IMG/VR virus record: IMGVR_UViG_3300020473_000011
Location: 1-64,000 of that record
Strand: one strand, 5' to 3'
Origin: a virus
Length of the DNA: 64,000 nt
Within the stretch, counting starts at the first letter, position 1. The number at the start of each line of letters is the position of its first letter. The notes beneath the pieces are model-generated. The model was not told where the DNA came from, did no database searches, and saw only the letters and a list, made by a program, of their open reading frames with translations. A program made the translations under genes and the position numbers. Shown here one piece after another: positions 19,020 through 55,451 of this stretch.

Positions 19020-20610
19020 TGGAGTTATCCACCTTTCTTAGCGCAGGGTGCCCACACCGAGATTAGGTGTGGGTTGAATGCGCAAAATAATTGAAAATTA
19101 TTTTCCTAGGACTGACGCTAAGTCAATGGTGCGTAGGCATTTTCAACGAAAATAAGCCATTGCTTTGTACAATCTTTGTTGGTAAATTGAACTTAATCTA
19201 ACTAGGAATTACTCTTGTGAAAATACTTAAAGCGTTTCGTTACTTATTGGCTCCGACCGACGCCCAAGAAATCTTGTTTTACAAGATGGCGGGCTGTGGT
19301 CGTGTAGTTTATAACGACACGCTTGATTATTTGCTTAACATCATAAAGAAAGACCTAGGTATCACCGACCGAAAGGCATTGTACAAACATCTAAACAGCT
19401 TGGATTACAAAGCGCGTAAAGCGCTGTTTAGTAAGTTACCGCATCATTCGGCCATGAACAAACTGGTTACCGCTTGGAAAAAACTAGAACATCGCGAATG
19501 GCTCTCAGAAGCCTATCGCGATAATTTAGACCAACGCCAACGTGATTTACATAAAGCACTAGAGAAATGGTTGAAAGGCGCAGGGAGCTTCCCGCGCTTT
19601 AGGCAGCGCTCTACAGCCCATCACTCAACAATGCGCTTTGTGAACTTTAACAAATACTGCGCATTGCACGACAGTCGCGTCAAGTTGCCGAATAAGCTTG
19701 GCTTAGTTAAGTTCCGTAACTCACAACCAATCGAAGGCACACCGAAGAGTTGTACCGTTTCGCTTAACGCGTGTGGTCAATGGCACATTTCAATTCTTTG
19801 TGAACTCGAAGTATCTAAACCAATGCCTACGGCTGAGACAGCCGTAGGCATTGATATGGGTATTGCTAAAAACATGACCCTAAGTGACGGCACTGTTTAC
19901 AGTGGCGTCCACAGCTTCAAAGGTATTATGGGCAAGCTGGCCAAGTCGCAACGGAAGTTCGCCCGCCAAGAAAAAGGCTCAAACAACTGGAAGAAGCAAA
20001 AGTTAAAGATAGCTAAGCTTCACCAGAAAGCTGCGAACGCACGCAGAGACTTTCAACAAAAAGCCACGACCGAGATCAGCAAAAACCACGCAATGATAGT
20101 CGTTGAGGATTTGAAAGTTTCTAATATGTCACGCAGTGCAAAAGGTGACGCTGAAAACCACGGTAAAAACGTGAGGCAAAAGGCAGGACTAAACCGCTCT
20201 ATACTCGATCAGGGTTGGGGTGAAATTCGCCGACAGCTTGAATACAAGTCTGAATGGCTTGGCAACGTGTTTCATGCGGTACCACCGCACCACACGAGCC
20301 AGACGTGCCCTGCTTGTCGTCACAAAGCCAAAGAGAACCGATTGACACAAGCTGAGTTCATTTGTGTTGAGTGTGGTTTCAGCGAGAATGCCGACGTCGT
20401 CGGCGCTATCAACGTCTTACATCGCGGCATGGCCTTAGAGGCCAGCGCGAATTAGTTATCAGGGCAGGTCATGCCCGTAGCGCCTGTGAAGTGAATTGGC
20501 ATTGGCCAGTCAGCAACAGGAACCAGTAAACCGAGTGATCAGTTTACACCTAGTAATGGGAATCCTCTTCCTGCGACGGCGTAGCCGCAAAGGGAGGGGA
20601 GGATGTCAAA
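19020..20610 (+). mobile_element. IS200/IS605-type element lacking tnpA
   Basis: A stretch bounded roughly by a left hairpin (CCCACACC/GGTGTGGG, 19051-19073) and a right-end structured RNA finishing at GAGGATGTCAA (about 20609). It encodes tnpB only. There is no Y1 transposase, so mobility would need a TnpA supplied elsewhere. The exact left boundary is not determined. Confidence 0.6.
19217..20455 (+). CDS. tnpB: TnpB RNA-guided endonuclease
   Basis: A 412-residue, apparently intact TnpB. The RuvC-like triad is present: Asp213 in VGIDMGIAK, Glu297 in VVEDLKVSNM and Asp393 in ENADVVGAINVL. The zinc finger is CPAC (364, 367) with CVEC (383, 386). The family is the ancestor of Cas12: it uses an RNA derived from the element's right end to cut DNA beside a short target-adjacent motif. 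GTG start with AGGA upstream. A TTGTACAA palindrome at 19165-19172 lies just before it, as at resident genes, so it may have been drawn into the element's regulon. Confidence 0.95.
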   Translation: MKILKAFRYLLAPTDAQEILFYKMAGCGRVVYNDTLDYLLNIIKKDLGITDRKALYKHLNSLDYKARKALFSKLPHHSAMNKLVTAWKKLEHREWLSEAYRDNLDQRQRDLHKALEKWLKGAGSFPRFRQRSTAHHSTMRFVNFNKYCALHDSRVKLPNKLGLVKFRNSQPIEGTPKSCTVSLNACGQWHISILCELEVSKPMPTAETAVGIDMGIAKNMTLSDGTVYSGVHSFKGIMGKLAKSQRKFARQEKGSNNWKKQKLKIAKLHQKAANARRDFQQKATTEISKNHAMIVVEDLKVSNMSRSAKGDAENHGKNVRQKAGLNRSILDQGWGEIRRQLEYKSEWLGNVFHAVPPHHTSQTCPACRHKAKENRLTQAEFICVECGFSENADVVGAINVLHRGMALEASAN

Positions 20611-36704: not shown

Positions 36705-36730
36705 TAAAAAAGGCTACCCATTGGTAGCCT
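36705..36730 (-). terminator. Intrinsic terminator after Ser/Cys peptide genes
   Basis: On the minus strand AGGCTACC-AATG-GGTAGCCT followed by TTTTTT. It closes the three-gene unit 36756-37615. Confidence 0.92.
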
Positions 36731-36755: not shown

Positions 36756-36935
36756 TTAGCACGAGCTGCTACAAGAGCTTGAGCTGCATGAACTACATGA
36801 GCTGCATGAACTGCACGAGCTACAGCTGCCACCGCCACCACCTGAGCCGCCGCGACGCTTACGTTTGTTTGACATGTTTAGAGCTGCTTTGTAGGTAAAG
36901 CGCTTGTGCCTTGTACATTTACTTAATTGACGCAT
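36756..36935 (-). CDS. Gly/Ser/Cys-tailed micro-protein B (59 aa)
   Basis: A basic head of ~30 residues (RQLSKCTRHKRFTYKAALNMSNKRKRRGG in two parts: RQLSKCTRHKRF, then YKAALNMSNKRKRRGG) joins a tail of GSGGGGG followed by repeated SCSSC units ending SSSC. ATG at 36935 has AAAGGGGAG upstream; a longer in-frame reading to 37022 runs through the sister gene in another frame and is rejected. It shares YKxxLNMS, an RRGG junction and the tail with the sister peptide at 36955-37098. The tail is reminiscent of heterocycle-forming peptide precursors, but no modifying enzyme is adjacent. Confidence 0.75.
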   Translation of the reverse strand: MRQLSKCTRHKRFTYKAALNMSNKRKRRGGSGGGGGSCSSCSSCSSCSSCSSSSCSSSC

Positions 36936-36954
36936 AGTATGACTCCCCTTTTTC

Positions 36955-37098
36955 TTAACACGAACTACTGCAAGAGCTACAAGAACTACAGCTACTGCCA
37001 CCACCGCCACTTGAGCCACCACGGCGTCGGCGTGACATATTTAGCGTACCCTTGTAGGCACTTCGATGGTTTTTAAGGTGTGTCTTTAAAGTCTTCAT
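36955..37098 (-). CDS. Gly/Ser/Cys-tailed micro-protein A (47 aa)
   Basis: Starts at ATG 37098 after GAGGG. The head KTLKTHLKNHRSAYKGTLNMS and RRRRGG leads to SSGGGGSSCSSCSSCSSSC. It is a clear paralogue of peptide B downstream: same length of head, YKxxLNMS, Arg-run, GG, Gly-run and SCSSC repeats, with fewer repeats. It lies 13 bases after the WHxxL-family gene. This is too short for standard gene callers. Confidence 0.7.
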   Translation of the reverse strand: MKTLKTHLKNHRSAYKGTLNMSRRRRGGSSGGGGSSCSSCSSCSSSC

Positions 37099-37111
37099 AG
37101 AGTGAACCCTC

Positions 37112-37615
37112 TTAGTTTAGCACTTTGTGCAATTTAAGCTGCTCCCACATGTCGCTAGTATCGACTAGCAACTCGTCAGGCAGTAATGAATCCATAGCGA
37201 AAAGTAGTGGTAGCTCGTCGGAACCGCAGGGTATTTCTTCACGTTGCGCGCAAAGGTAAAAGGTGCGAAGCGTCATGACTTCCATCGGCTCAGTTTGGGT
37301 ACCTGTGGAAGTCTTGAACTGCGCTTCTATCTCAGGTACGTGATCAACAAAGCGGCCTACTACGTTAAACAACTCGCGATAGTCTTTCGAGAATAAGAGG
37401 TACGCATGCCATAGCTCATCAACCAACTTTGATGGCATGCCGCATGGCTTTTGCGATTCAAGGCTGACAATGAAGTAGTCGATCAGGGCTTGGCCGCACA
37501 TTTCGACGTCTTGTTCGGTCAGCTCAACACTGAACTTAGTTTCAGCCTCTTTCTTGAAGCGTGCCAGTACATAGGGTGGAACTGTATGACCTTCTAAATA
37601 GCTCAGGTTCATCAT
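37112..37615 (-). CDS. WHxxL/DUF1399-like protein (167 aa)
   Basis: Core motif MPSKLVDELWHAYLLFSKDY, GRFVDHVPE, then ELPLLFAMDSLLP. From memory this matches a bacterial family related to glycine-rich-domain proteins (pattern PSxxVDxxWHxxxLxTxxY, GRFxHHxP, LPLLFALD). In many members the polypeptide ends in a Cys/Gly/Ser-rich tail. Here the protein stops without a tail, and two separate tail-like peptides follow directly in the same transcript. Function of the family is unknown. The start is ATG 37615 or 37612 with weak GAGAAAT upstream. Confidence 0.65.
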   Translation of the reverse strand: MMNLSYLEGHTVPPYVLARFKKEAETKFSVELTEQDVEMCGQALIDYFIVSLESQKPCGMPSKLVDELWHAYLLFSKDYRELFNVVGRFVDHVPEIEAQFKTSTGTQTEPMEVMTLRTFYLCAQREEIPCGSDELPLLFAMDSLLPDELLVDTSDMWEQLKLHKVLN

Positions 37616-37763: not shown

Positions 37764-38288
37764 ATGAATTATCGAGTAAATACGGATTCTGCGCGCCCTC
37801 AGCCCTTTCCACCCCATGGTAGGATTTCTGTAGAGGTTCACGGTACCAATAATGACCTAATCCATGTCAAATGCTTCGGCGCTTTCAATAAAGAAACAAT
37901 GCTAGCCTTAGTCGACATACAACAGCGCTATCGTGATTTATTGTGCCCCAAACGCTACGTGATCGTAGAGTTCATAGACACATGTTTAGCGCTGCCTGAG
38001 TTTTTTGCTGAGGCCACACGTCATCATAAAGAATTGGTTTCCCGTGGCCAGTCCTCAAAGGCCGTTGCTTATGTTATGCGCAAAGGTATCGAGGGTAAGT
38101 CCATGATGAAAGGCTTTTACTTGGGGGTCTATAAAGACGCTGGGATCCCAGTAGTCGTTACTGAGACCGTAGACGAAGCCCGCCAGTGGCTTAAAGAAAA
38201 AGGGCTGGGATCAGCCCAAACTAATGAGAATTGGAGCACACTCGCGGAATCGAACCGCGCTCATGCTGCTTTGCAGGCAGCCACCTAA
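37764..38288 (+). CDS. SpoIIAA/STAS-like protein (174 aa)
   Basis: A soluble alpha/beta protein whose core (HVKCFGAFNKETMLALVDIQ, KRYVIVEFIDTCLALPEF, SKAVAYVMRKGIEG, FYLGVYKDAGIPVVVTETVDEARQWL) resembles SpoIIAA-like STAS folds; the match is weak and from memory. Its last ~19 codons run antisense across the tRNA-Cys gene (38232-38306), so the C-terminal tail may be accidental extension. Good promoter upstream. Confidence 0.65.
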   Translation: MNYRVNTDSARPQPFPPHGRISVEVHGTNNDLIHVKCFGAFNKETMLALVDIQQRYRDLLCPKRYVIVEFIDTCLALPEFFAEATRHHKELVSRGQSSKAVAYVMRKGIEGKSMMKGFYLGVYKDAGIPVVVTETVDEARQWLKEKGLGSAQTNENWSTLAESNRAHAALQAAT

Positions 38289-38306
38289 CCACTCAGACAA
38301 GTGTGC
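38232..38306 (-). tRNA. tRNA-Cys (GCA)
   Basis: Cloverleaf with acceptor GCACACT/AGTGTGC, anticodon loop CTGCAAA, TTCGATT T-loop and an encoded CCA. First of six minus-strand tRNA genes. Its 3' half overlaps the end of the plus-strand 37764-38288 gene. Confidence 0.95.
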
Positions 38307-38325
38307 GTTGTACAATGAATTAAGT

Positions 38326-38401
38326 TGGCAGGGGCTATAGGACTTGAACCTACAACCTTCGGAGTTGGAAACCGCTGCTCTCCCAATTGAGCTAAGCCCC
38401 T
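38326..38401 (-). tRNA. tRNA-Trp (CCA)
   Basis: Acceptor AGGGGCT/AGCCCCT, anticodon loop TTCCAAC, CCA encoded. Close to the enterobacterial tRNA-Trp in sequence layout. A TTGTACAA word (38308-38315) lies between it and tRNA-Cys. Confidence 0.95.
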
Positions 38402-38412
38402 GCAATGAAAAG

Positions 38413-38496
38413 TGGTACGGGTAGCGAGGATCGAACTCGCAAGGACATACCGACAGAATTTAAACCTGCTGCGTTTACCAGTTTCGCCATACCCGT
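38413..38496 (-). tRNA. tRNA-Leu (TAA)
   Basis: Type II tRNA with a long variable arm, acceptor ACGGGTA/TACCCGT, anticodon loop TTTAAAT, CCA encoded. Confidence 0.95.
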
Positions 38497-38502
38497 ATTG
38501 TT

Positions 38503-38590
38503 TGGTGGATAGCCTTGGACTCGAACCAAGAAGCCCTTTAAGGGAGCGGGGTTACAGCCCGCGACGCTACCAATTACGCTCTAACTATCC
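38503..38590 (-). tRNA. tRNA-Tyr (GTA), copy 1
   Basis: Type II tRNA, anticodon stem GCGGG/CCCGC with loop CTGTAAC, acceptor GGATAGT/GCTATCC, CCA encoded. Its D-arm and anticodon arm are nearly identical to the second Tyr gene. Confidence 0.92.
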
Positions 38591-38599
38591 AATAATGTT

Positions 38600-38677
38600 T
38601 GGTGGACACTGGCCAGATTCGAACTGCCGACACTCGGAACTTCAACCCGATGCTCTAACCAACTGAGCTAAGTGTCC
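38600..38677 (-). tRNA. tRNA-Phe (GAA)
   Basis: Acceptor GGACACT/AGTGTCC, anticodon loop TTGAAGT, T-loop TTCGAAT, CCA encoded. Confidence 0.95.
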
Positions 38678-38687
38678 ACACTAAAAG

Positions 38688-38776
38688 TGGTGGATGAGGT
38701 AAGACTCGAACTTACAAAACCCTAAAGGGCAACGGGGTTACAGCCCGCGACGCTACCAATTACGTGTTACTCATCC
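38688..38776 (-). tRNA. tRNA-Tyr (GTA), copy 2
   Basis: Same D-arm and anticodon arm as copy 1, but a different acceptor (GGATGAG/CTCATCC), variable arm and T stem. CCA encoded. Two GTA tRNAs in one short cluster suggest duplication with later divergence or recombination between tRNA genes. Confidence 0.92.
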
Positions 38777-53417: not shown

Positions 53418-55451
53418 TTAGAATGTAACTTTAACTACGCGGTTAAATGAACCGCTAACTTTAACTAGTAACGCGTTGCGCTGCGTTGATGAAAAACCAA
53501 GACCGCTTAGCTGGTCATCTGTAGGGTCGGCCTTCAACTTAGAACCGAGTGCTTCAAATACCTTGCGGTGTTTGTTCAGTTCAGGTGCTAAGTTTTCGTT
53601 GTAGAATCCACGGATCTTGTCAGGTGACTGGCAGCCCTCTAGCATGAAGAAGAAGTGCTTATTACCAGTCTCTTCACCGTCCCAGTGGTTCGGTGAGTTC
53701 ATTACCATTGATACTTTTGACCATTGATGTGTGTTAACACCCCACTCTTGGCGTGAAGCCTCTGACCCTTTGATTGAGCTGATGATCTTGACGCCCTCAC
53801 TGTGCGAGTAGTCGAACTCAAGCACTATGATACTGCGGCCGTTTTGTAGTGCGTCTTTGTGTTCAAACTTAATGGTATTCCCGAAGTACTCAAATTCTAA
53901 AACAAAGCCAAAATCAATACGTTCACGTTGACGGAAGTTCTTCACCCGTACGCGATGGCGACCCTCTTGCATACGTGAACGGTCGGCATAGGCAATGTTT
54001 TCAACGGGTGTGCGTGAGTCGACACCCGTCGCGTTCATATCAATATCAAGGAACCCACCTGTGCGATAGCTTTTCTTGGAAGTAAAGTCGATCACATTAC
54101 CGTCAGGCTCTTCCATGCTAAGGTCTAAGTCGTCGCCATTGAACCATGCTAGAGAACTACGCACGTCCGCGTTGACATTACCGCCTGCGGCCTTAACCAA
54201 CTGGGTAATAGAAGCGTCGGCCAACTCGCCATTATAGCTCCAAGAGAAGTTGTTAGGCCACTTCAACATATTAGGCGCATCAGGGTACACAGGCGCAACA
54301 AGGCTGACCAGATTCGGCACATGTCGGTTTTCCATCATGACTTCAAGACTAGTGGCCTTTGGTAGCACATCTGCTACGAAGTCCTCAATGCTAATCTCTT
54401 CGACCTTATCGAACTTTTGCTTATTGTTGGCCTTTGTAGGCGCGAGAAGGTCAAGCGCATTACCCTTCATTTTCTTTTGAGCATCACGGTCGGCGAAGAG
54501 CACGTTATTCACTGTGATGTCTTCTAACCGAGCTGGGCGGCGGTAAAGCGAGTCTTCGAAGCCAAGCTGTATGATGGTCTCATTCGCTTCATCGATCTGC
54601 TTTTGTGTGATAAGGGCAGTTGGGCGCTTATAGTTCTCAGGCGCAACCTTCGCTTCATAAGATTTTACGGCATCTTCTAGGTCGCTGCCTTCGGAAAGGT
54701 CTGATAAGAGCGTCCCCATAGAAGTGTTGCGAAAACGGCCACTGTTACCAAGTTCTACAGACTTTTCCCAGAAAAACAGTTGTTCTTTTAGTGGGTCATC
54801 TAGTTTTTCTATGCGAGCGAACTCAGTTTTAACCTTAACGAGCGTGTCAACGATATGCTTGAACTCTTCACCGCGATACAAGGATCCCTGTGCAATTAGG
54901 TCACTTACTAACTCACACGAATAAAGGTCTACCTCACGTACGGAGCGCTCTAGTACCATTTTGTTAGCACGGGTGTCTGAAAGGTATGAGCCAGCCTCGG
55001 CATTTACAAACTTGTTAGGTAGGTCAAAATAGAAGTGTTCCCACTTCTTCTGTTCACCATTGGCCATAGGCTCAAAGTTGTGAGAAGTGCCCACGCGGGT
55101 TTCCCAGTGACGATACACATTCTGGATAGAGTCGCTATGTTGGCGTACGAAAAGGGAAAGTGCGTCAGCTACGGCCTGACGGAAGTCACTAAGCTCAATA
55201 TCCCACACTGTAACTAGTTTGCCATCAATGATAGCAATAACATTACCAATATTTCGGATGAAGTTGCGGCAGCAAGCGCAATCGTGTTCAGTACGTTCGC
55301 GATAAAGAGGGTTGGTGCCTTTAGGGAAGCTTGAAAGATATTCGTTGTACAACTCGTCTTTATTTAACTCGACGGTGTATAGCTCAGTGCTGTTTTCGGT
55401 CATATACGCTAACTGCGCATTAACAGCGTCACGCATGGCATTAAAGCTCAT
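53418..55451 (-). CDS. Large protein with Cys cluster (677 aa)
   Basis: An unrecognised 677-residue protein. The N-terminal HDCACCRNFIRNIGNVIAI contains CxCC, likely metal-binding; I recall this motif in uncharacterised actinophage and plasmid proteins. Residues ~385-420 read LVSLVAPVYPDAPNMLKWP and FSWSYNGELADAS, and the C-terminus has a beta-rich domain (FVLEFEYFGNTIKFEHKD). A leader AACCGATAC (complement of 55473-55481) and GGAGAG precede the ATG. Function unknown. Confidence 0.75.
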   Translation of the reverse strand: MSFNAMRDAVNAQLAYMTENSTELYTVELNKDELYNEYLSSFPKGTNPLYRERTEHDCACCRNFIRNIGNVIAIIDGKLVTVWDIELSDFRQAVADALSLFVRQHSDSIQNVYRHWETRVGTSHNFEPMANGEQKKWEHFYFDLPNKFVNAEAGSYLSDTRANKMVLERSVREVDLYSCELVSDLIAQGSLYRGEEFKHIVDTLVKVKTEFARIEKLDDPLKEQLFFWEKSVELGNSGRFRNTSMGTLLSDLSEGSDLEDAVKSYEAKVAPENYKRPTALITQKQIDEANETIIQLGFEDSLYRRPARLEDITVNNVLFADRDAQKKMKGNALDLLAPTKANNKQKFDKVEEISIEDFVADVLPKATSLEVMMENRHVPNLVSLVAPVYPDAPNMLKWPNNFSWSYNGELADASITQLVKAAGGNVNADVRSSLAWFNGDDLDLSMEEPDGNVIDFTSKKSYRTGGFLDIDMNATGVDSRTPVENIAYADRSRMQEGRHRVRVKNFRQRERIDFGFVLEFEYFGNTIKFEHKDALQNGRSIIVLEFDYSHSEGVKIISSIKGSEASRQEWGVNTHQWSKVSMVMNSPNHWDGEETGNKHFFFMLEGCQSPDKIRGFYNENLAPELNKHRKVFEALGSKLKADPTDDQLSGLGFSSTQRNALLVKVSGSFNRVVKVTF

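Follow-up and report, generated by a model that had tools for sequence, protein, structure and literature searches.

A phage-encoded WHxxL protein and two separate Ser/Gly/Cys-rich peptides as a candidate split protein

A minus-strand operon in a viral contig encodes a WHxxL-family protein without a tail and, directly behind it, two paralogous Ser/Gly/Cys-rich peptides that resemble the tail carried by its relatives on the same chain. The arrangement is real and unusual; its function is a guess. Our preferred reading, to which we give a probability of about 0.45, is that the operon represents a split WHxxL and Ser/Gly/Cys-tail protein, in which the peptides would act in trans with the domain and their thiol-rich arms would bind metal or make thiol contacts. 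Members of the bacterial WHxxL-tail family occur in many Pseudomonadota and Actinomycetota genomes, have no Pfam or NCBIfam model, and had no function that could be found in the searches made. A natural split offers a direct route to the function of the tail, because addition, removal, or mutation of the tail then concerns only a separate peptide.

Layout and coding character of the operon

The window analyzed here is a stretch of 64,000 nucleotides, bases 1–64000 of a 281,557-bp virus record that resembles the contig of a jumbo phage and is otherwise unclassified; the minus-strand unit under study lies at 37615–36756. Its first gene (37112..37615, −) encodes an acidic protein of 167 aa (pI 4.6) that contains the motifs MPSKLVDELWH, GRFVDHVP, and LPLLFAMD. 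This is followed by an ORF for a 47-aa peptide (36955..37098, −; pI 10.6) with a basic head, YKGTLNMS, RRRRGG, a Gly run, (SSC)n, and four Cys, and then by an ORF for a 59-aa peptide (36756..36935, −; pI 9.9) with a basic head, YKAALNMS, KRKRRGG, a Gly run, (SSC)n, and eight Cys in total. CxxC spacing occurs among the cysteines of both peptides. Each peptide gene has an ATG start and its own Shine-Dalgarno-like element, read from the sequence as GAGGG for peptide 1 (37107..37111, −) and AGGGGAG for peptide 2 (36943..36949, −). Because a predicted intrinsic terminator, the stem-loop AGGCTACC-AATG-GGTAGCCT followed by TTTTTA (36711..36730, −), comes 3′ of peptide 2, we treat the three genes as one unit. 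The sequence-only reading from which this analysis started had described the same unit, with the three WHxxL motifs and the paralogous 47- and 59-aa peptides, and every detail that we checked was accurate.

The peptides have YKxxLNMS, an Arg run with RRGG, a Gly run, and SCSSC repeats in common and are 68% identical across aligned positions. This is not chance: the entire contig has 2,549 six-frame ORFs of 30 aa or more, and just these two contain a window with 20 of 20 S/G/C residues; the runner-up reaches 18, with a simple GSGSGS repeat. From Y15 to the end, synonymous divergence between the two is saturated (pS 0.87) and nonsynonymous divergence is low (pN 0.15), and at three of the 11 Ser positions common to both peptides the codon has switched between AGY and TCN, a combination that argues for selection at the protein level and against a recent DNA repeat. 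By these substitution patterns, peptides 1 and 2 read as old paralogues that are genuinely coding. Residues 1–14 show little conservation (pN 0.56) and appear to be free to vary. Within the tail-coding DNA there is a short imperfect 9/18-base array, which suggests that the Ser/Gly/Cys tail probably expanded by unit duplication and was later retained by selection.

The WHxxL family in bacteria and phages

Nothing in Pfam, PHROGs, or NCBIfam matched the 167-aa ORF, and single-query scans with the protein found nothing; relatives came up only with alignments. An alignment-based scan of bacterial genomes yielded 204 relatives, of which 80 were kept, and the best of these are proteobacterial proteins that align over residues 4–145 at about 26–38% identity. 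The core in common with them extends along the whole phage protein at 26–37% identity (MPSxxVDxxWH, G(R)FLHH.P, LPLLFxxD; in the phage protein, MPSxxVDxxWH, G-x-x-x-x-H-x-P, and LPxLFxxD), and M60, P61, S62, V65, D66, W69, H70, G87, H92, P136, F139, and D142 are invariant in 28 sequences including that of the phage. The typical proteobacterial order is membrane helix, WHxxL core, LPLLFAxD, and Ser/Gly/Asp/Cys tail. An N-terminal TM-like segment is present in 38 of 44 complete proteobacterial-type homologues, and 35 of the 44 have an S/G/C/D-rich end (last 40 residues at least half S/G/C/D, with at least two Cys). Together with two other phage contigs, these proteins confirm the earlier statement that relatives carry a Cys/Gly/Ser tail on the same chain.

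The proteobacterial WHxxL-tail proteins (L009–L064), which likewise matched no Pfam or NCBIfam family, thus combine a membrane helix with a fused, disordered tail, whereas the phage protein has neither and is accompanied by two separate tail peptides. No N-terminal membrane helix is seen in the phage protein (maximum 15-residue hydropathy 1.15), and its chain ends ...DMWEQLKLHKVLN without a C-terminal Ser/Gly/Cys tail, the tail-like sequence being found in the separate ORFs. Compared with these relatives, the phage protein has lost both helix and tail. Bacterial tails are often Asp-rich with a GGD end, and the phage peptides are Arg/Lys-rich; the actinobacterial branch of the family has CxxCHxGC-type ends and the alphaproteobacterial branch CxxC...SCTVH ends. 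A maximum-likelihood tree places the phage protein on a long branch inside the proteobacterial group, near the protein of phage contig L120 and a Campylobacteraceae sequence, although its exact position is unsure because the branches are long.

Proteobacterial WHxxL genes have no conserved neighborhood; their neighbors vary and are unrelated housekeeping genes. Several alphaproteobacterial genes with the CxxC...SCTVH end precede a glycosyltransferase gene (L001:120-4483, in tandem; L044:3740-7478; L050; L060), and in L001 and L044 an ABC transporter also follows. It is possible that these loci are an unrecognized RiPP-like type with a large folded leader. In Streptomyces (L052 and L056), WHxxL genes with CxxCHxGC ends precede a SAM methyltransferase gene, and kin of the actinobacterial genes occur in IMG/VR contigs L005–L008 and as gp33 of Streptomyces phage Kromp.

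An AlphaFold2 model of the phage WHxxL protein is confident (pLDDT 88, pTM 0.84) and all-helical. It had no fold match in the PDB, and its best match among viral predicted structures, at a modest TM, was a Harvfovirus GRDP-like protein (Foldseek probability 1.00, E 6.5e-3, TMq 0.49), followed by other giant-virus proteins. The model of a bacterial homologue, L010, retrieved the Harvfovirus GRDP-like protein again, also at a modest TM (Foldseek probability 1.00, E 3.6e-3, TMq 0.44), as well as a Terrestrivirus protein; beyond LPLLFALD this model has an ordered hairpin and then a disordered tail with pLDDT of about 42–45. GRDP-like proteins (PF07173) include plant AtGRDP1/2 and giant-virus homologues, and the predicted WHxxL fold has a suggestive similarity to the models of the Harvfovirus and Orpheovirus proteins. 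Plant AtGRDP2 likewise combines the conserved DUF1399 domain with a Gly-rich end (PMC4299439), although this protein of 787 aa has an RNP-1 motif and no split tail, unlike the phage operon. The PF07173 model did not match the phage protein at E≤1 and gave no significant match to its relatives (best E 0.076, in one of 28 members). Because the sequence profile does not recognize WHxxL proteins, we leave the family outside GRDP-like membership, and on the strength of the structure models we consider a distant relationship to GRDP-like (DUF1399) proteins probable.

WHxxL domains with Ser/Cys tails are recurrent in phages. A degenerate-DNA search identified the IMG/VR phage contig L120, which encodes a WHxxL protein with a fused Ser/His/Gly/Cys tail and, by eye, GIY-YIG-type, DNA-ligase-like, and YqeY-like ORFs. 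Querying by tblastn with a bacterial member of the family led to gene_95 (BBK09209.1) of the cultured Klebsiella phage 05F01 (Stephanstirmvirinae), in which the WHxxL domain is followed by the tail ...SCSSCSTSSCSSSSC... and the C-terminus is NHHTHSCSSCSTSSCSSSSCSSSSCSSSSCSS; of the fused tails, this one is nearest in kind to the two separate peptides. What both phages have in common with the phage studied here is a phage-encoded WHxxL domain and a Ser/Cys-rich tail, but in both the tail is fused to the domain, and neither has small tail peptides in an operon. That three unrelated phage contigs, including that of a cultured Klebsiella phage, encode the domain together with a Ser/Cys tail suggests repeated exploitation by phages, and 05F01 provides a workable test system. 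In both other phages a YqeY-like gene lies near the fused WHxxL-tail gene (L146:2947-3807; L120:7053-7814), immediately downstream in 05F01 and, by eye, about 2.5 kb off in L120.

The earlier claim that the tail is split and duplicated into stand-alone peptides proved to be real, and this form was found at this locus only, among searches limited by low-complexity filters. A viral scan with a peptide profile returned 599 pattern stretches, none of which was confirmed, with low-complexity masking that could have led to a miss, and a viral scan with the degenerate pattern YKxxLNMS...GGG returned only three copies of one unrelated gene. Split peptides were absent from 27 phages sharing a 677-aa marker gene and from the flanks of 80 bacterial WHxxL loci, and 33 WHxxL genomes or records gave low-complexity matches only. 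Conserved co-occurrence in other genomes, by which the sequence-only reading would have had its proposal judged, therefore holds for the fused form and not for the split one. Searches of IMG/VR with a neighboring gene of the operon revealed no close sister phage, and for the 677-aa protein no full-length identity to a relative exceeded about 48%. The peptide heads have no detectable relatives. The idea that they derive from the C-terminal hairpin of the bacterial proteins, now detached (with YKxxLNMS resembling GFxYxLNC), is unsupported, as the heads did not outscore shuffles: against a profile of 40-odd bacterial segments, shuffled sequences equaled or exceeded the real score in 2740 of 5000 trials for peptide 1 and 615 of 5000 for peptide 2.

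Supply of the tail in trans and competing explanations

A tail that is fused to a domain in relatives and separate in one genome is a classical hint that the separate parts have a joint function, and here the fused form is a strong hint that the peptides belong with the WHxxL protein. Under the split-protein reading, the 167-aa acidic GRDP-like domain would be soluble, because its membrane helix has been lost, and the tail would have been relocated onto two duplicated, strongly basic, separately translated peptides. We infer that the protein and the peptides interact physically, with the peptides docking on the domain in trans, possibly by opposite charge (pI 4.6 for the domain vs. 10.6 and 9.9 for the peptides) or by the conserved Tyr-Lys-x-x-Leu-Asn-Met-Ser. 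The flexible, thiol-rich arms may then bind metal by clustered Cys in the manner of metallothionein-like thiol peptides, as their CxxC spacing would allow, or form thiol contacts in the infected cell; such metal or thiol chemistry is our leading guess from composition. Having two peptides would supply extra copies and two arm lengths. It is a long shot that the tail goes further and serves during infection as an exchangeable, separately dosed peptide cofactor, with its Ser/Cys arms cross-linked or metallated, possibly by the radical SAM enzyme that the phage itself encodes. A surface-coating role, which had been suggested earlier, seems unlikely, given that the WHxxL protein of the window has no signal or TM segment and that the WHxxL homologues of 05F01 and L120 lie among metabolic or early-type genes.

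The peptides might instead be independent small phage proteins, for example with a host-takeover or inhibitory role, that have nothing but their operon in common with the WHxxL gene and whose likeness to the tails is low-complexity convergence. Ser/Gly/Cys low complexity is easily made by expansion of a 9-base unit, the imperfect 9/18-base array is present, and the heads are without detectable relatives; we nevertheless think this unlikely, as 281 kb contain no other ORFs of this kind, the two follow immediately on a gene whose product lacks the tail borne by its family, and similar fused tails occur on other phage WHxxL proteins. We hold it equally doubtful that the peptides are nucleic-acid-binding proteins, with Arg-rich, RGG-like heads, Ser/Cys arms that drive condensation or clustering, and the WHxxL protein as scaffold or regulator. 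Heads with a pI of about 10 and RRRRGG or KRKRRGG make an RNA-binding or condensate role possible, but searches with the peptides gave no above-threshold match to a known nucleic-acid-binding family, and the fused phage and bacterial relatives show no equally Arg-rich head ahead of the tail. Neither peptide starts in frame with the preceding gene, and the spacers are short, which could also indicate a fused gene that was split by assembly error or is joined by programmed frameshifting. This is hardly credible, as a single-base error cannot yield two paralogous ORFs each with a Shine-Dalgarno element, an ATG, and a basic head, and saturation at silent sites implies long separate evolution of the peptides.

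The peptides also have the leader-plus-Cys-core look of RiPP precursors such as sactipeptides and thiazolyl peptides, which are small, with a basic N-terminal part and a Cys/Ser-rich C-terminal part. The basic head would then be a leader or recognition element, the SCSSC arm a core modified on Ser/Cys by a phage radical SAM or host enzyme, and the WHxxL protein a precursor-binding partner. The contig does encode one radical SAM protein (G000:108142-108513(−), PF04055 E 2.8e-11), whose N-terminal part gives a match, far under the cut-off, to the subtilosin maturase AlbA (3e-8) and whose Cys-rich C-terminus contains CSQCNDC, and the glycosyltransferase, ABC transporter, and methyltransferase genes that follow some alphaproteobacterial and Streptomyces WHxxL genes with Cys-rich ends fit the same idea. 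However, the radical SAM gene is unlinked, about 70 kb from the operon; phage LR756500, with a similar radical SAM protein, has no WHxxL; and the proteobacterial relatives adjoin unrelated housekeeping genes. Unlike RiPP precursors, the phage peptides have no linked modification enzyme, peptidase, or exporter, with no modification enzyme within or beside the operon, and their match to thiopep_precurs is weak (E 0.077, below cut-off). We consider a RiPP-like system improbable. The proposal that RRGG is a cleavage site is unsupported: no Peptidase_C39, YcaO, or MNIO (PF05114) gene occurs anywhere in the 281-kb contig, and the heads are basic and not of the double-glycine leader type. PF03412, the C39-type peptidase/exporter that goes with double-glycine leaders, was not detected in the contig while controls were, and a host peptidase is possible. 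The radical SAM protein itself (also L133:3758-4597(−)) has just two relatives, both distant, among 50,697 phage records.

Other features of the contig

Just upstream of the operon lie six tRNA genes (Tyr, Phe, Tyr, Leu, Trp, Cys; 38232–38776, −), including two tRNA-Tyr genes with an identical anticodon, and a 174-aa plus-strand ORF between tRNAs and operon overlaps the end of this cluster. The 677-aa protein of the window (53421–55451, −) belongs to PHROG 1735, the function of which is not known, and is about 50% identical to many myophage proteins (502 records from phages of Salmonella, Klebsiella, Dickeya, Vibrio, and others) in a contig that is otherwise orphan. By eye, the product of the ORF at 19217–20452 (+) resembles a TnpB/OrfB-type transposon protein (MKILKAFRYLLAPTDAQEILFYKMAGCGRVVYN...).

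In the rest of the same contig (L132–L140), 12 of 282 otherwise different proteins have the N-terminal motif [ST]R[AI]xx[IVL][LI], examples being MSRATQILERV, MTSRASKILETH, and MTRADQILARF. Shuffled sequences gave an expectation of 0.3 (maximum 2 in 200 shuffles), and 63 kaa of protein interior contained three occurrences. This motif might be a common N-terminal signal, for sorting, packaging, or as a propeptide, in an orphan jumbo phage; its carriers include L132:3664-4305, L134:8328-8696, L137:17406-17780, L137:17773-18603, L138:17419-17952, and L140:3242-3901.
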